DNA from: a virus
IMG/VR virus record: IMGVR_UViG_3300044993_000053
Location: 1-29,411 of that record
Strand: one strand, 5' to 3'
Length of the DNA stretch: 29,411 nt
The translations under genes and the position numbers were made by a program. Below are positions 3,349-25,963 of this stretch, piece by piece; position 1 is the first letter of the stretch, and each line of letters starts with the position of its first letter. The notes beneath the pieces were generated by a model that saw nothing but the letters and a program-made list of their open reading frames with translations, did no database searches and was not told the DNA's origin.

Positions 3349-4172
3349 ATGCACCGCGAGAGGGTCTGTACCGCGGCCTACCGCTCGAGAGCCGGCTGCT
3401 CAACCTCGGGCCCGAGCCGGTCGCGTTGCGCACCGGCGCCGAGTTCACTCGCGACGCCGGCGACACCGAGACCTCGACCACGATGGTCGGACACTTCGCT
3501 GTGTTCGGCGAGTGGACGAGGATCAGCTCGTGGTTCGAGGGCGAGTTCCTCGAGCGCATCGCTCCGGGCGCGTTCACGAAAACGATCGCCGAGCGACGCG
3601 ACATGATCCGCGTGCAGTTCGACCACGGGTTCGACTCGTTCGTCGGCGACGCTCCGCTCGGGCCGATCGCTGTGCTCCGCGAGGACGACATCGGGGTGTG
3701 GTACGAGGTGCCGCTACTCGACACCGACTACAACCGGAACCGCGTGCTGCCGATGCTGGAGGGTCGCACCATGTCCGGCGAGCAGTTCGGGTCGCTGCTC
3801 GGTGCCTCGTTCCGGTTCTCGGTCGTGCGCGAGGAATGGAACGACGAACCCGAGCGATCCGACTACAACCGCGACGGTCTACCGGAACGCACGATCACCG
3901 AGCTCAAGCTCGCCGAGTTCGGGCCGGTCGTGTTCCCCGCCTACCATGCCGCTACTGCAGGAGTGCGGTCGCTCACCGATCACTACCTCGAGCGAACGCG
4001 CGAGCTACGCTCGCGACAGTCCGACGTGCCCGCCGGTTCGACCACCGGCACCGACGACACCGACGCGCCGAGCTCAGCTCACCCGCCGGTCGAAAGTGAT
4101 GGCAACCGATCCCGCCGCGTGGCCGTGACATCGGCACGCGCGCAACTAGAACGAACGAGGTCGAACCGATGA
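3345..4172 (+). CDS. Prohead protease (HK97 family, U35-like)
   Basis: This 275-aa serine protease would trim the capsid delta domain during maturation. MVGHFAVFGEWTRI (47-60) and FLERIAPGAFTKTI (68-81) are typical of the family. The likely catalytic His is H94 in QFDHG, and the Ser is S155 in LLGASFRFSV. ELKLAEFGPVVFPAY (186-200) carries the conserved acidic residues. The C-terminal 60 residues are Thr/Ser/Arg-rich and probably self-cleaved. AGGAGG at 3332-3337 supports the ATG. The gene lies between portal and capsid with 4-base overlaps at both ends. Confidence 0.92.
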   Translation: MNAPREGLYRGLPLESRLLNLGPEPVALRTGAEFTRDAGDTETSTTMVGHFAVFGEWTRISSWFEGEFLERIAPGAFTKTIAERRDMIRVQFDHGFDSFVGDAPLGPIAVLREDDIGVWYEVPLLDTDYNRNRVLPMLEGRTMSGEQFGSLLGASFRFSVVREEWNDEPERSDYNRDGLPERTITELKLAEFGPVVFPAYHAATAGVRSLTDHYLERTRELRSRQSDVPAGSTTGTDDTDAPSSAHPPVESDGNRSRRVAVTSARAQLERTRSNR

Positions 4173-5710: not shown

Positions 5711-5957
5711 TACCACCGAGTACGTGTTCGCATCGGCGACTGCGCAGCTATCACTCGGCGACGAGCTGGTGCCGGTGCGCGCCGGCGAGGTGTGGCCGGC
5801 CGATGATCCGGTCGTAACGGCGAACCCGAGCATGTTCTCCTCGACACCGCCGGTCGTGCGCCGGTACCGCGGCGGGATCGTCGAACGTGTCAGACCCGAG
5901 GTGATCGAGTCGGCGACGGCCCGGCCGGGCGAGCGACGCAACACGCGCCGGCGATGA
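5703..5957 (+). CDS. Small head/neck-region protein of unknown function
   Basis: The product is 84 aa, starting at the ATG after the start-associated leader. The sequence has a beta-rich core (YVFASATAQLSLGDELVPVR) followed by AGEVWPADDPVV and a basic tail ending RRNTRRR. Phages often carry a small protein of this kind directly after the major capsid gene, for example a decoration or neck-associated protein, but I do not recognise a specific family. The stop overlaps the glycosyltransferase ATG as ATGA. Confidence 0.75.
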   Translation: MTTTTEYVFASATAQLSLGDELVPVRAGEVWPADDPVVTANPSMFSSTPPVVRRYRGGIVERVRPEVIESATARPGERRNTRRR

Positions 5958-6808
5958 CCAACTCCTCGAGGTCGGGTGACGTTGTGCTCGCTTACGTGCA
6001 CTCGAACGAGGTCGCCTACTCGTGGCACGCATCGCTCGTCGACCTCGTGATGCACGACGTGTCACACGACCGGAGGCTCTCGCATCGCATCGCGGTGAAG
6101 TGCTCCAGCGGCGGGCTCGTCGAGGCGCGCAATCAATGCGCCGCCGAGTTCCTCGCCGGGCCGGGCGACTGGCTATTCATCCTCGATACCGACATGGGGT
6201 TCGCTCCCGACACGCTCGACCGGTTGCTGCAGGTCGCCGACCCGACCTCGAGGCCGGTCGTCGGCGCGCTCTGTTTCGCGTGGCTCGAGGCCGAGCCCGA
6301 CGGTCTCGGCGGCTACCGGTGCGGCACCCGACCGACAGTGTTCCAGTTCCACCAGGACGAGACCGGCCGGCGGGTGTTCGCCGCGGTGAGCGAGTATCCG
6401 GCCGACGCAGTGGTGCCGGTCGCGGCGACTGGCTCGGCGTGCATCGTGTGGCACCGCTCGGTGCTCGAGGCGATCGCGGCCGAGTACGGGCCGACATGGT
6501 ATGACCGGATACCGGCGCCGGCTGAGAGCTCGGACGGCCGAGCTCTACTCTCCGAGGACATCAGCGCGTGCGCTCGCGCCGGCGCTGTAGGCGCGCCGGT
6601 ACACGTTCACACAGGCGTCGCGACGAATCATCAGAAAACGACATGGATCGGGCCGGCCGATCACCCGCCTAGCCTCAACCTCGACCAGAGGTCGAGGGTG
6701 AACCTCGAGTCGAGGTCGAGGGTTGACAGTTCCGACCCGATCGCCGACCTCGAGGGCGAGCTCGCCCGGCCGGCGAACCGGGCCGAGCGGCGTCGGCGCC
6801 GGCAGTGA
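5954..6808 (+). CDS. GT-A-like glycosyltransferase (family 2 type)
   Basis: This 284-aa protein would transfer a sugar from a nucleotide sugar. SGGLVEARNQCAAEFL (52-67) resembles the nucleotide-sugar part of the family. LFILDTDMGF (74-83) contains the metal-binding DxD motif (D78, D80). SEDISACARAGAVGAP further on matches the ED segment that supplies a catalytic acid, and HVHTG follows it. It is embedded in the head operon, which is typical of actinophages that glycosylate their capsid or tail; the acceptor is an inference. The last 45 codons (PPSLNLDQRSRVNLESRSRV) are encoded by two dyad repeats, so the C-terminal tail is probably a by-product of repeat insertion. Confidence 0.8.
   Translation: MTNSSRSGDVVLAYVHSNEVAYSWHASLVDLVMHDVSHDRRLSHRIAVKCSSGGLVEARNQCAAEFLAGPGDWLFILDTDMGFAPDTLDRLLQVADPTSRPVVGALCFAWLEAEPDGLGGYRCGTRPTVFQFHQDETGRRVFAAVSEYPADAVVPVAATGSACIVWHRSVLEAIAAEYGPTWYDRIPAPAESSDGRALLSEDISACARAGAVGAPVHVHTGVATNHQKTTWIGPADHPPSLNLDQRSRVNLESRSRVDSSDPIADLEGELARPANRAERRRRRQ
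6676..6736. repeat. Dyad repeat pair R1/R2 in the 3' part of the glycosyltransferase gene
   Basis: R1 pairs CAACCTCGACC (6676-6686) with GGTCGAGGGTG (6690-6700), with one mismatch. R2 starts at 6700 with GAACCTCGAG, continues with GAGGTCGAGGGTTGAC and ends in TTCCGAC (6730-6736). They belong to a family also found at 10700-10765 and 21836-21951. Confidence 0.75.
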
Positions 6809-20450: not shown

Positions 20451-20770
20451 AGCGAACCGGTATCAGCCGCCGGCCGTCGCCTCGAGCTCGAGCTCGGCGA
20501 GCGGCGATGGCCGAGCTCCGGGTGCTCGTCGCTCGCCGCTCGGCCGGCAGGTGCGAGGCGTGCTCACGACACCAGCTCGCCGGCTGCAACGGACGCGCCG
20601 AGCACGCTCACCACGTTCGCCCGACCGGTACCGGCGGGCCCGACACGCTCGAGAATCTGCTCGCGGTGAGCGCCACTCATCACCGATGGATACACGAGCA
20701 TATCGCCGAGGCCCGTGCGCTTGGTCTGCTAGCACCACCACCACCACCACCAGGAACACCACCACCATGA
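20447..20770 (+). CDS. HNH endonuclease
   Basis: The product is 107 aa, starting at the GTG overlapping the RecT stop. CEAC (36-39) and later Cys/His residues form the zinc-binding part. The HNH core is HAHHV (53-57), N70 in GGPDTLENLLAVSA and HHRWIHEH (78-85). Phage HNH proteins nick or cut DNA during packaging or recombination. This one follows the recombination genes and is not next to the terminase. The last 12 residues, nearly all proline, are encoded by the start-associated leader of the next gene, which it overlaps by four bases. Confidence 0.82.
   Translation: MKRTGISRRPSPRARARRAAMAELRVLVARRSAGRCEACSRHQLAGCNGRAEHAHHVRPTGTGGPDTLENLLAVSATHHRWIHEHIAEARALGLLAPPPPPPGTPPP
20733..20766 (+). 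promoter_or_regulatory. Start-associated leader with CAC microsatellite
   Basis: A CAC triplet tract runs from 20733 to about 20751, followed by CAGGAACACCACCACC and the ATG at 20767. It is the most repetitive form of the leader family and lies fully inside the HNH coding region. Confidence 0.7.
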
Positions 20771-21969
20771 CCACCGCCCACTACCTCGTCGGCGACGTGT
20801 TCGACGTGCTACCGATACTCGATGCCGGTTCAGTCGACCTCGTGTGCACCTCGCCGCCGTTCCTCGCTCTGCGTCGATACCTCGACGACGAGCACCCGAT
20901 GCGTGATAGAGAGATCGGCACCGAGAGCTCGCCGGCCGAGTTCCTCGACACACTGCTCGAGCTCACTGCTGAGCTCGGCCGCGTGCTCGCGAGGACCGGC
21001 TCGCTCGTGGTCGAGCTCGGCGACACCTACGCCGGCTCGGGAGGTGCCGGCGGCGACTACTCGCCCGGCGGGTTGCGCGACGGTCAGGGCAAGAGCTCGG
21101 GCTCTGCTCGCCGTTCGGGCGAATGGCCGCTAGACAAGAGTCTCGCTGGCATCCCGACGCTCTACGCGTGGTCGCTCGCCTACGGGCGCAACTTGCTCAC
21201 CGGTGCCGACTCGCCGGCCGGTCGGTGGATCGTGCGCAACGTGGTCGCGTGGACCAGATCGAACCCTCCGGTCGGCGCGACGTTCGACAAGTTCCGACCC
21301 GCGACGAGCTACATCACAGTCGCGACCCGAGCTCGCGACCGATGGTTCGACTCGTTCGCTGTGCAGACCGAGAGCGGCGCCGCGCCGCTCGACTGGTGGA
21401 CTGTCTCACCCGAGAGCTACACCGGCTCGCACTACGCGACATGGCCGAGGCGACTGCTCGAGGTGCCGATCCGCGCAATGTGTCCGCTCGAGGTCTGCAC
21501 CGTGTGCGCCGAGCCGCGCCGGCGCGTGGTGGCGAACGTGCGCACGTTCACCGACGTGCGACCGAGCGCCGGCCGCGCCCGGATGCGCACCTCGGGTGCG
21601 GGGCCGATGGGGGCGAAATACCAGGTGCGCCGAGAGTCGCTCGGGTTCACCGACTGCGGGCACTCGAGCTACCGGCGAGGGGTCGTGCTCGACCCGTTCG
21701 CCGGGTCCGGCACTACCGGCGCAGTAGCGACCGGGCTAGGCCTCGACGCGGTACTGATCGACATTGACGAGCGGAACGTCGAGCTCGCCCGAGAGCGTAT
21801 CGGCATGTTCCTCGATGTTGAGCTCGATCCGCTGACGAACCCTCTACCAGTGGTCGAGGGTTCGTCGCCACACCTACCGATCGCCGATGCAGACACTCAA
21901 CCTGCAGTGAAGGTGGAACCTGAACCTCTACTTGAGGTTGAGGGTTCCGACGTTGGGAGGCTCGCGTGA
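20767..21969 (+). CDS. DNA methyltransferase, N4-cytosine/N6-adenine type (beta class)
   Basis: The product is 400 aa. The catalytic motif IV comes first (VDLVCTSPPF, residues 23-32) and the SAM-binding motif I comes near the end (VVLDPFAGSGTTGAVATGLG, about 307-326), which is the beta-class order. SPPF is most often seen in N4-cytosine enzymes, but N6-adenine is possible. Between them is a target-recognition region and a possible zinc site (MCPLEVCTVC, then FTDCGH). No restriction enzyme lies beside it, so it probably protects phage DNA from host restriction. The final 45 codons are built of dyad repeats R5-R7. Confidence 0.88.
   Translation: MTTAHYLVGDVFDVLPILDAGSVDLVCTSPPFLALRRYLDDEHPMRDREIGTESSPAEFLDTLLELTAELGRVLARTGSLVVELGDTYAGSGGAGGDYSPGGLRDGQGKSSGSARRSGEWPLDKSLAGIPTLYAWSLAYGRNLLTGADSPAGRWIVRNVVAWTRSNPPVGATFDKFRPATSYITVATRARDRWFDSFAVQTESGAAPLDWWTVSPESYTGSHYATWPRRLLEVPIRAMCPLEVCTVCAEPRRRVVANVRTFTDVRPSAGRARMRTSGAGPMGAKYQVRRESLGFTDCGHSSYRRGVVLDPFAGSGTTGAVATGLGLDAVLIDIDERNVELARERIGMFLDVELDPLTNPLPVVEGSSPHLPIADADTQPAVKVEPEPLLEVEGSDVGRLA
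21836..21951. repeat. Dyad repeats R5-R7 at the 3' end of the methyltransferase gene
   Basis: R5 pairs 21836-21849 with 21851-21864 (14-bp arms, one mismatch; CGAACCCTC with GAGGGTTCG). R6 (21897-21920) is weak. R7 (21922-21951) contains GAACCTCTACTT and GAGGTTGAGGGTTCCGAC. They share the family consensus with 6676-6736 and 10700-10765. Confidence 0.75.
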
Positions 21970-22004: not shown

Positions 22005-22363
22005 GCGCGCGAGTGCCAGCGAGCTCACCGGTTGGTGCCGGGTGCCAGTCGTGCGAAGTGCGCGGGCCCGACCGGTTTCTCTGCAGCTACCACGAGGGCG
22101 TTTCCGACACGCTCGCCGAGCTCGAGGCGCGTCCGGCTCCCGACGCGCTCGCTCTCTGGTTCGACCTCACTTGTCCACGTTGCGCTGGTCGGGTCGAGGT
22201 GATCGCCCGATCGGGTGTGCACGACGGCGGGCGACGCGCGACATCGATCGTCAAGTGCATGAGCTCGGCCGGCCGTCGGTGCGGCCGGTCGTGGCAGATC
22301 GTACTCGAGGTGCAGGCGTGCCACTACACGCCGAGCGCTAGCGAGCGCGTGCTCCAGCTCTGA
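22001..22363 (+). CDS. Zinc-ribbon protein
   Basis: The product is 120 aa from the GTG overlapping the mini-ORF stop. It has CQSC followed by FLCSYH in the first half, and TCPRCAGRVEV, VKCMSS and RCGRSW in the second half, which suggests two zinc-binding units. Such proteins in phages bind DNA or RNA, or serve as subunits of replication or transcription factors. The gene lies between a DNA methyltransferase and the replication initiator. I recognise no named family. Confidence 0.68.
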   Translation: MSARVPASSPVGAGCQSCEVRGPDRFLCSYHEGVSDTLAELEARPAPDALALWFDLTCPRCAGRVEVIARSGVHDGGRRATSIVKCMSSAGRRCGRSWQIVLEVQACHYTPSASERVLQL

Positions 22364-22396: not shown

Positions 22397-23101
22397 ATGG
22401 CACGTATCCGATCCATTCACCCGAGCGCACTCTCGAGTGAGCGACTCGCCGAGCTCACGAGCGACGCCGAGCGACTGTTCTGGCGACTGCTCCCACACTG
22501 TGACGACCAGGGGCGCGCCGACGACTCGCCGAAGCTCATCGCGGCGTTCGTCGCGCCGCTCATCGACGCGTTCGACGCCGAGCTCGTCGACCGGTTGCTC
22601 GACGAGCTCGCCTGCGCGGGTCTGATCGAGAGATACCAGGTCGGCGGGTCGCGCTACCTCGCTGTGATGCAGTGGCGCCGTTTCCAGCGACCGCGCAAGC
22701 CGCAGGCGCCGACTCGGCCGGCGTCACCGACGCAACGGGCCGAGCTCGAGCTCGAGCTCGAGGCGAACGCGGAACGTGAGCGCGTCGACGCCGAGCGAGA
22801 GCGCGACACGAGTGCAACACCAGGTCGGAACGAATGCAGTGATAGTGCGGCTGTGGATAACTCTGTGGGCAGCACCGGTGCGGACGAGTGCGGAACCGGT
22901 GCGGAACTGGTACGCGAGGGAATAGGAAAAGGAGTAGGAGAAGGAATAGGAGTGGGAACTGGAGTAGGAGGGGGAGAGAGCACGAGAGAGGGGGAGGGCG
23001 CGAAAGCACCTCGACCTCGCAGACCGAGGCTCGCCCGGTGGAACGGCGACGCACCTGCAACGCAGGGTGCACGCTCGGTGGCCGATCGCCCACTTTGGTG
23101 A
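22397..23101 (+). CDS. Replication initiator / helicase loader with winged-helix N-terminus
   Basis: The product is 234 aa. The leader CCAGGAGATTCACGAC fixes the ATG. Residues 1-95 follow a common phage pattern: MARIRSIHPSALSSERLAEL, ERLFWRLLPHCDDQGRADD, LLDELACAGLIERYQV and YLAVMQWRRFQRPRKP, a winged helix found in DnaD-like or lambda O-like replication proteins. The rest is low complexity: a Glu/Leu/Arg coil (AELELELEANAERERVDAER), then Gly-rich repeats (GKGVGEGIGVGTGVGGGE) and a basic tail. No helicase or DnaD C-terminal domain is visible. The low-complexity part coincides with a likely replication origin in the DNA, as in lambda O. Confidence 0.72.
   Translation: MARIRSIHPSALSSERLAELTSDAERLFWRLLPHCDDQGRADDSPKLIAAFVAPLIDAFDAELVDRLLDELACAGLIERYQVGGSRYLAVMQWRRFQRPRKPQAPTRPASPTQRAELELELEANAERERVDAERERDTSATPGRNECSDSAAVDNSVGSTGADECGTGAELVREGIGKGVGEGIGVGTGVGGGESTREGEGAKAPRPRRPRLARWNGDAPATQGARSVADRPLW
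22845..22997. other. Candidate replication origin inside the initiator gene
   Basis: From left to right: a GTGCGG repeat at 22845; a consensus DnaA box TGTGGATAA (22852-22860, the complement of TTATCCACA); three more GTGCGG repeats at 22878, 22888 and 22899 (spaced 33, 10 and 11 bases, near whole helical turns); then a long purine tract (about 22917-22997), less GC-rich in its first half than the surroundings. The layout of iterons plus an unwinding tract inside an initiator gene mirrors lambda O. Function is inferred. Confidence 0.55.
22967..22997. repeat. Polypurine mirror repeat (possible triplex H-DNA)
   Basis: The arm GGAGGGGGAGAGAG (22967-22980) and its exact mirror GAGAGAGGGGGAGG (22984-22997) flank CAC. 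Homopurine mirror repeats can fold into intramolecular triplex under supercoiling. Confidence 0.8.
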
Positions 23102-23106
23102 CACCG

Positions 23107-23394
23107 ATGAGTGAACTGTCCGACAGGCTGCGCGAGTGGTGCGAACTGCGTCGGGTCGACATCGCCGACGGCATCGGTGACGACCTCTGTGCCGCCGCTG
23201 ACCGCATCGAGGAGTTGGAGGCTGCCATGACCGACGCTGCACGGGAGCTTCACAGCACCCACTACCAGGCCCCGCTGGACCGTCACCTGTGCGTCGTGTG
23301 CGGCGCAGAGGACGGCAACTACCCGTGCACCGCCCACATGGTCGCCGACGAACTGCGCCGCATCGCTGCTGCTGTGGAGAACACCGATGAATGA
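23107..23394 (+). CDS. Island gene A: small Cys-containing coiled-coil protein
   Basis: The product is 95 aa from the ATG at 23107; the GTG at 23098, overlapping the previous stop, is an alternative that adds three residues. Features are a short helix (MSELSDRLREWCELRRVD), the motif CAAADRIEELEA, a zinc-type pair (HLCVVCGAEDGNYPC) and the ending DELRRIAAAVENTDE. The middle and end motifs recur in gene B, so the two are paralogous modules. Leucine is encoded mostly by CTG, unlike the rest of the window, which points to recent transfer. Function unknown. Confidence 0.72.
   Translation: MSELSDRLREWCELRRVDIADGIGDDLCAAADRIEELEAAMTDAARELHSTHYQAPLDRHLCVVCGAEDGNYPCTAHMVADELRRIAAAVENTDE
23191..23222 (+). 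repeat. Island direct repeat, copy 1
   Basis: These 32 bases, starting GCCGCCGCTGACCGCATCGA, match 23621-23652 with one mismatch. A second shared block of 22 bases lies at 23353-23374 and 23750-23771. The repeats encode ADRIEELEA and LRRIAAA in genes A and B. Confidence 0.85.
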
Positions 23395-23797
23395 CTTGCT
23401 GCCGTCCAAGTGTCCAACGTGCGGGAGCGAACAGTTCGACACCTACTACGGGTCGTGCTTCGACAACCAGCACCCAGCCGTGTTTGACGCCCGGCTTCCG
23501 GCCGACCCGTGGCACAACTACACCCGGTCCATTGCGTGGTTAGAGAGGGCGGTCGACTCGTTGGAGTTGCAGCTCAAGGTGGCGACACGACTGACGGCTG
23601 AGCGTGACGAGAGGCTGGCTGCCGCCGCTGACCGCATCGAGGAGCTGGAGGCCCGCCACCAGCGCCTCCTCGACGCCATCGGCGACCCACAGAAGTTGCG
23701 GGACGTGGCCGACGGCTTGATCGTCGACGGCTGGGACGACGGCCCCTACCTGCGCCGCATCGCTGCTGCTGCGGATGACACGCGGGAGGAACAGTGA
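23387..23797 (+). CDS. Island gene B: zinc-finger coiled-coil protein, paralogous to gene A
   Basis: The product is 136 aa; its ATG lies eight bases inside the end of gene A. The N-terminus has a zinc ribbon (KCPTCGSEQFDTYYGSCF), then ARLPADPWHNYTRSIAWLER, a coiled coil (LAAAADRIEELEARHQRLLD) and the ending YLRRIAAAADDTREEQ. The coiled coil and the end are nearly identical at DNA level to gene A. Small zinc plus coil proteins of this type are common accessory genes in environmental phages with no known role. Confidence 0.72.
   Translation: MNDLLPSKCPTCGSEQFDTYYGSCFDNQHPAVFDARLPADPWHNYTRSIAWLERAVDSLELQLKVATRLTAERDERLAAAADRIEELEARHQRLLDAIGDPQKLRDVADGLIVDGWDDGPYLRRIAAAADDTREEQ
23621..23652 (+). 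repeat. Island direct repeat, copy 2
   Basis: This is the partner of 23191-23222, with one C/T difference. The near identity indicates recent duplication of a gene module. Confidence 0.85.
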
Positions 23798-25098: not shown

Positions 25099-25301
25099 GC
25101 TCGGCCGAGTGCGTCACCGGTCGTGCTCGGGCTGTGATCGGCGCTCGAGTCATTTTCACCAAGACCGGCTCGATCGGCACCGTCACGGACACGTTCACTA
25201 TGACCGGTGCCGGCGACCTCGACGGCGACTGGTTCACAGTGCGCGCCGACGATCTGTTCACCTACTCGGCGCCGGCGACTTCGTTCGAGGTGCAATCGTG
25301 A
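25095..25301 (+). CDS. Small SH3-like protein of unknown function
   Basis: The product is 68 aa. The sequence is all-beta with a KOW/SH3-like rhythm: ARAVIGARVIFTKTGSIGTV, then GDWFTVRADDLFTYSA. This fold often binds nucleic acid or protein tails. The gene overlaps its neighbours on both sides by four bases, in an operon with the C5 methyltransferase. The fold is a guess from pattern only. Confidence 0.62.
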   Translation: MSSAECVTGRARAVIGARVIFTKTGSIGTVTDTFTMTGAGDLDGDWFTVRADDLFTYSAPATSFEVQS

Positions 25302-25963
25302 GTCCACCTCGCGCTCTCGACCTTTACTGCGCGGGCGGTGGCGCCGGCCGCGGACTCGAGCTCGCCGGGTTCGAGGTCGTCGGGTGGGATATCGACGACA
25401 TGAGCCGTTACTACCCAGGGGAGTTTCATCGCGGCGACGTGCTCGAGCTCGAGCCTGCCTACGTGGCCGAGTTCGACCTCGTGTGGTCGTCGCCGCCATG
25501 TCAGGCTCACTCGATCGCGACGCGCAAGTGGCCGGGCCGGGCCGACGAGCACCTTGACCTCATCCCGCAGACCCGAGAGCTGCTCGACGCTGCTGGCGTG
25601 CCGTACGTGATCGAGAACGTGCCGGGCGCACCGCTACGCGTCGATCTCATGCTGTGCGGGCTTATGGTGGGGTTGCCGCTACTTCGTCGGCACCGCGTGT
25701 TTGAGCTCGTCGGGTTCCAGGTCCAGCAACCCGAGCACCCGCGCCACGAGCCCAACGTTCGCTACATCACTGTCGCCGGACATCCAGGCGGAAGCTCGGC
25801 GCGTGATGGTGTCAACGGGTTCGGTTCCACCGCCGAGTGGCGCGCAGCTATGGAAATCGACTGGCTACCCGCGCGACTCATCGCTCAAGCGATCCCGCCT
25901 GCGTACTCGAGGCTCATCGGCGCCGCGGCGATCGCCGAGCTCGGGCTCGGGGTGACCTCGTGA
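25298..25963 (+). CDS. C5-cytosine DNA methyltransferase
   Basis: The product is 221 aa from the GTG overlapping the previous stop. Motif I is ALDLYCAGGGAGRGLELAGF (6-25), and DIDD (31-34) binds SAM. Motif IV is SSPPCQ with catalytic C68, motif VI is VIENVPG (E106), and IPPAYSRLIG near the end is motif X. It is short for the family (often 300 or more), with a very small target-recognition region, as in other phage enzymes. No restriction partner is visible, so self-protection is likely. Confidence 0.88.
   Translation: MSPPRALDLYCAGGGAGRGLELAGFEVVGWDIDDMSRYYPGEFHRGDVLELEPAYVAEFDLVWSSPPCQAHSIATRKWPGRADEHLDLIPQTRELLDAAGVPYVIENVPGAPLRVDLMLCGLMVGLPLLRRHRVFELVGFQVQQPEHPRHEPNVRYITVAGHPGGSSARDGVNGFGSTAEWRAAMEIDWLPARLIAQAIPPAYSRLIGAAAIAELGLGVTS

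Follow-up and report, generated by a model that had tools for sequence, protein, structure and literature searches.

The replication origin of phage lambda lies within the gene of its own initiator, O. Four annotated iterons are found in the linker-coding middle of the gene and are followed by an A+T-rich unwinding tract, in which nearly all purines are on one strand (PMC5043065). Inspection of the lambda sequence places these purines on the coding strand. In the RepA_N plasmids of Firmicutes the arrangement is similar, and in pSK41 the ori is central in rep and is bound by the N-terminal winged helix-turn-helix (wHTH) domain, with the protein segment encoded by the linker being dispensable (PMC5703833). 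Bacterial oriC of the DnaA-trio type combines DnaA boxes with AG-rich triplets.

A 29,411-bp IMG/VR virus record with a GC content of ~67%, referred to here as the window, has a segment at 22845-23006 that is, with a probability of roughly 0.87, the replication origin of the phage. It would lie inside the phage's own initiator gene and be opened by way of a winged helix, iterons and a purine array. Found directly are the homology of the initiator, a constraint on the DNA beyond its coding function, the conserved order and strand of the elements, and a duplex that is weakest at the array. That an origin lies within the initiator gene, arranged as in lambda O, is the central claim, and these sequence comparisons support it well. 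As judged from them, the design is that of lambda O and of the staphylococcal RepA_N plasmids, built from different sequences.

As in lambda-type origins, the repeats are in the linker after a DNA-binding domain (binding is predicted), with a weak and purine-asymmetric tract adjacent to them. There are also clear differences. Lambda O matches the N-terminal domain Phage_rep_O (PF04492), whereas the window protein and nine relatives do not. The lambda iterons are dyads of 18-20 bp and not direct repeats of ~11 bp, and the lambda tract is A+T-rich instead of G/A. The O-like C-terminal domain is missing from the window protein. With respect to RepA_N plasmids, sequence similarity is undetectable, the hosts are other ones and the known C-terminal partner domains differ.

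The initiator gene and its relatives

The window has a terminase match at position 520 and a capsid match at 4169. A glycosyltransferase-like gene (5954-6808; PHROG 34859, E 2.3e-12) is inside the structural block, directly after the major capsid gene. The contig has no terminal repeats and may be incomplete. A recombination block with a RecE-like exonuclease, a RecT-like protein and a DNA methyltransferase is directly upstream of the initiator gene. Besides the methyltransferase ORF at 20551-21969, a second DNA methyltransferase-like ORF is at 25109-25963 (PHROG 363, E 5.8e-38). At 23108-23797 are two consecutive small genes with common direct repeats of 33 bp and 32 bp (97% and 91% identical) in matching places; these are a duplicated gene pair. 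A nucleotide search of phages with 21.9-25.9 kb of the window gave distant methyltransferase matches only, thus no close relative with the same iterons was found. The features of the locus are as follows (window coordinates).

22397..23101, + strand: replication initiator gene, 234 aa, with winged-helix domain, putative origin-coding linker and short C-terminus (PHROG profile matches)
22397..22711, + strand: DNA-binding winged helix, residues 1-105, presumed to read the iterons (AlphaFold model and fold matches)
22845..22850, + strand: outlying GTGCGG, possible extra half-iteron, 33 bp (3 x 11) ahead of the iterons and in 11-bp phase
22852..22860, - strand: exact consensus DnaA box TTATCCACA, a putative optional accessory, between wHTH and iterons
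22877..22919, + strand: four direct iterons of 10-11 bp, GGTGCGGACG, AGTGCGGAACC, GGTGCGGAACT and GGTACGCGAGG (lag-11 self-match)
22919..22980, + strand: array of ~10 G/A hexamers of the GGARNR type, presumed DNA unwinding element (stability, asymmetry and recoding tests)
22981..23006, + strand: further purine run of higher GC content, GAGAGAGGGGGAGGG, forming the tail of the array inside the maximal purine segment
23007..23101, + strand: short C-terminus, 30 aa after the array, replacing the usual ~140-aa partner domain (family length comparison)

The ORF at 22397-23101 matches PHROG 1408 (E 1e-24, residues 1-163) and PHROG 2149 (E 9.5e-22), both annotated as 'replication initiation protein'. 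It matches no Pfam family, RepA_N (PF06970) included, and searches of Pfam and PDB sequences with the N-domain gave no matches. The AlphaFold model of the winged helix is confident (pLDDT 90.4, pTM 0.83). Its top PDB fold match is the initiator 4pt7 (prob 1.00, E 3.6e-3, TM 0.46, with other winged helices scoring near), an initiator of the RepA_N plasmid group. Many phage 'replisome organizer' models are among its best viral fold matches in BFVD.

Homologues were collected from IMG/VR, GenBank phages and GTDB genomes: 247 distinct genes, which a cut-off of 70% winged-helix identity groups into 88 clusters. The initiators of Pclasvirinae, F10, HK639 and Austintatious (RepA-like; PHROG 1408/2149) are direct homologues over residues 1-110. 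The gene directly after the homologue encodes a P-like loader in HK639, a DnaC-like loader in F10 and the DnaB helicase in JBD44. Thus these homologues, adjoining helicase or helicase loader genes, have the gene position of lambda O. Some family members also have the lambda O C-terminal domain: in Streptomyces phage Austintatious the initiator ends in a C-terminus homologous to the lambda O one (39% over 69 aa, E 1e-11), which stands behind a winged helix different from that of O. The examined records of the Pclasvirinae, F10, HK639 and Austintatious homologues carry no annotation of an embedded origin, and no reports of origins embedded in PHROG 1408/2149-type genes were found in the open-access literature. 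In mycobacteriophages with a different RepA group, an origin in or beside repA has been suggested, with no repeats found (PMC7157519).

Most PHROG 1408/2149 initiators share the iteron-array layout of the window gene, but most have a ~140-aa C-terminal domain that is missing in the window. A median of 138.5 aa follows the array in 70 clusters, compared with 30 in the window protein; short forms are also found in four other homologues (L245, L003, L026 and L042). A frameshift was considered as the source of the short C-terminus and rejected, as an other-frame ORF at 22888-23394 is, by eye, unlike the C-domains. The ORF list of the window, with PHROG/Pfam profiles on part of the ORFs, yielded no recognisable gene for a helicase or a loader, whereas loaders are present beside the HK639 and F10 homologues. 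Both the absence of the usual C-terminal domain and the lack of a recognised loader count against the origin reading.

Iterons, purine array and DnaA box

A preliminary description of this DNA, which placed an origin within the initiator gene, listed four GTGCGG repeats. These are present at 22845, 22878, 22888 and 22899, with spacings of 33, 10 and 11. Over the window as a whole GTGCGG shows no enrichment (37 seen, 46 expected), but four same-strand copies within 60 bp appeared in 0/400 Markov simulations. The repeat unit is better read as ~11 bp than as the hexamer: the last three copies are parts of a longer repeat, spaced 10-11 bp, that runs into the purine array. The lag-11 self-match in the window exceeds the synonymous null, with a modest signal (p = 0.03).

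Across the family, 38% of clusters and 0% of 232 controls are more self-similar upstream of the array, at lags 9-13, than the synonymous null allows (p<=.01). Where this periodicity test gave p<=.05, the lag is 11 in 32/38 clusters. Exact GTGCGG is not conserved across the family. The ~11-bp iteron differs from one phage group to the next, as is expected if iteron and DNA-binding domain co-vary. By direct reading, TCGCGAGAC repeats precede GGAACAGGGGAACAGG in mycobacteriophages; elsewhere among the homologues, TTCGCCGAACG repeats precede GGAAGGGAAGGG and TCGACGA repeats precede GGAGAGGAGAGG. A single family-wide iteron motif, sought by EM, was discarded for its poor phase, with spacings near 11, 22 and 33 and all three frames.

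The purine tract of the preliminary description is real and larger than had been claimed, extending over 22916-23006 by run score with a core at 22919-22980. Duplex stability over 40, 50 and 60 bp reaches its contig minimum in the array, at 22920, and the array is also the most purine-asymmetric 80-mer of the 29.4 kb. Synonymous recoding of the window gene gave an equally long purine run in 0/300 cases (z = 7.1). Of the Gly codons in the array, 12/13 are GGA or GGG, versus 3/11 in the rest of the gene; family-wide the values are 94% inside arrays and 39% elsewhere in the same genes.

The longest purine segment is directly after the winged helix in 236/247 genes (37% expected). Iterons come before purines throughout the family, and in 88/88 clusters it is the coding strand that carries the purines. 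Array periods of 5, 7 and 8 nt are the most frequent. With synonymous recoding by the locus's own codon usage as null model and ORFs from the same loci as controls, the purine run exceeds expectation at p<=.01 in 59% of the 88 clusters versus 0% of 255 control ORFs; ~40% of clusters are above that threshold. Lambda O, the positive control, has its purine segment at the right place, without significance (9.8% of null), and a scan for lambda O relatives to broaden the test yielded near-identical copies only. The rep gene of TP901-1 has no comparable purine array, so not every phage initiator gene carries a G/A array. One group of homologues (L180) is without the purine array and has TCGCGAG iterons followed by CTAGTACC repeats in the array's place, which may be an unwinding element of another kind.

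An exact DnaA box, TGTGGATAA (reverse complement of TTATCCACA), is found at 22852-22860 as previously described, with no other exact TTWTNCACA in the window. Its rarity by chance is borne out: under a first-order Markov model, 0.08 exact boxes would be expected over the whole window and 0.0004 over 153 bp. One-mismatch sites are at chance level (5 seen, 4.2 expected). A further near match reported upstream, TTGTCCACG, is present at 22171-22179 but falls outside of the conserved element. As part of a conserved design the box does not hold up. Consensus boxes are in the linkers of only 3/247 genes (the window, L195 and L231), each time between winged helix and iterons. The density of TTATCCACA is 0.105 per kb in linkers versus 0.007 elsewhere (~15x), from five sites in three genes. 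Thus DnaA would be at most a lineage-specific accessory. The L195 gene has two exact inverted boxes, TGTGGATAA...TTATCCACA, before its iterons, ~62-92 bp past the end of the winged helix.

Constraint and exchange within the family

Among 53 mycobacteriophage-type genes, the iterons and the array diverge synonymously by 0.06-0.18, versus 0.20-0.58 in the wHTH and ~0.5 directly after the array. A second patch of low synonymous divergence, 0.20-0.23, is found in winged-helix codons 50-70 of the L086-type genes in this set.

C-terminal domains were compared by direct pairs, as single-linkage clustering merged types. Where two genes have winged helices of 80% identity or more, their C-terminal domains show no detectable similarity in 226/403 pairs, and unrelated domains occur up to 99% winged-helix identity (Ksquared and Purky, at 98%, are an example). 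In the L086 and L089 loci (3.0-3.9 kb in both) the winged helix, iterons and array are near-identical and the C-terminal domains are unrelated. The switch point is directly after the array, thus winged helix and origin appear to travel together. What is new here, going by these pair comparisons, is that winged helix and putative origin form a cassette, with the C-terminal partner domain exchanged directly after the array. Also new is a preference of the array for an RNA:DNA hybrid, which suggests opening with the help of transcription. Likewise in RepA_N plasmids, N-domain and ori are a swappable module, and a hybrid of like logic was noted experimentally for the initiator of plasmid pPR9 (PMC5703833).

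Readings of the element and their meaning for phage replication

The earlier proposal of an origin inside the initiator gene stands in its main part at the level of architecture, with the layout kept in very diverged relatives and a constraint at the DNA level beyond that on the protein; the DnaA box and the exact GTGCGG drop out of it. GC skew, suggested there as a check, shows no informative switch at the 22845-23006 segment of the window. In the proposed mechanism, the N-terminal winged helix would bind the helically phased ~11-bp iterons, and the initiator-iteron complex would distort the DNA and open the adjacent G/A array, a stretch of observed duplex weakness. The host replicative helicase could be loaded onto the exposed strand through the C-terminal part of the initiator or through another protein. 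The amino acid linker would be mainly a by-product of the DNA element, in keeping with the DNA-level constraint. Host DnaA may be brought in through the box in the window lineage, outside of the core design.

Other readings of the segment should also be considered. The linker of the window protein is Gly/Glu/Arg/Lys rich and probably disordered, and could be a flexible, charged low-complexity segment whose DNA repeats are tolerated slippage products without origin function. Low-complexity DNA is prone to slippage, which can likewise beat a synonymous-codon null. However the iteron lag of 11 and the array periods of 5, 7 and 8 are not multiples of 3, so slippage of single units would break the frame. 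Order and strand are also fixed, copy number is narrow (4-5 GGAACAG in 45/53 mycobacteriophage-type genes), and the synonymous divergence of 0.06 in this group is the opposite of fast evolution; the slippage reading is therefore very improbable. Only slightly less improbable is that the iterons are operators for self-repression of the initiator and the purine tract a pause or terminator-like element, with the origin elsewhere. A wHTH protein could regulate its own gene through cognate repeats close by, and strand-fixed purines could matter in RNA, but operators ~450 bp into a coding region would be unusual, and the adjacent weakest duplex, together with the lambda and pSK41 precedents, better fits an origin. 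The least probable reading is a chromosomal-type origin at which the tract is opened by host DnaA bound to the box, in the manner of oriC or a DnaA-trio. It draws on the exactness of the box, very unlikely by chance, on the enrichment of TTATCCACA in linkers, few as the sites are, and on the occurrence in the array of triplets like TAG and AAG. Against it, the single box is 58 bp from the array, a wrong spacing for a trio, and is rarely conserved, and relatives have the array without any box.

A variant of the embedded origin, in which transcription assists the opening, is given more weight than these three and is still unlikely. The initiator mRNA would keep an RNA:DNA hybrid on the array, and this R-loop and the iteron-bound initiator would together open the origin. 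With hybrid energies after published tables, the array ranks first among the 40-mers of its locus for favouring a hybrid in 45/88 clusters and falls within the top 1% in 70/88, a preference sharper than that for duplex weakness (top 5% in 54/88 clusters). The window array is likewise the extreme of the window for a hybrid with the coding-strand transcript. The invariable coding-strand position of the purines agrees with an R-loop, as does the need of lambda for transcription across or near ori (PMC5043065). However any purine-rich coding strand gives such energies, so they are not independent of the purine bias, and the orientation is equally explained by strand capture by the initiator or by helicase polarity.

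The preferred reading remains an origin embedded in the initiator gene. Its fullest form can be put forward only tentatively: a portable cassette of winged helix, 11-bp iterons and coding-strand G/A array, which would be opened by transcription of its own gene via an RNA:DNA hybrid, and whose C-terminal helicase-contact domain would be swapped by recombination after the array, in a large family without a Pfam entry.

With the embedded design, origins could be predicted to nearly the base pair in hundreds of phages that infect Actinobacteria and Proteobacteria, by a simple search rule: after the winged helix of a PHROG 1408-type gene, 11-bp repeats and then a coding-strand G/A array. The family would also be a natural series of origins for two questions from lambda, the purine asymmetry of the unwinding tract and the role of transcription in opening (PMC5043065). 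The cassettes could serve as plasmid replicons for actinobacteria. Swapping of C-terminal domains at the array may be a way for phages to change their helicase contacts while initiator and origin stay matched.
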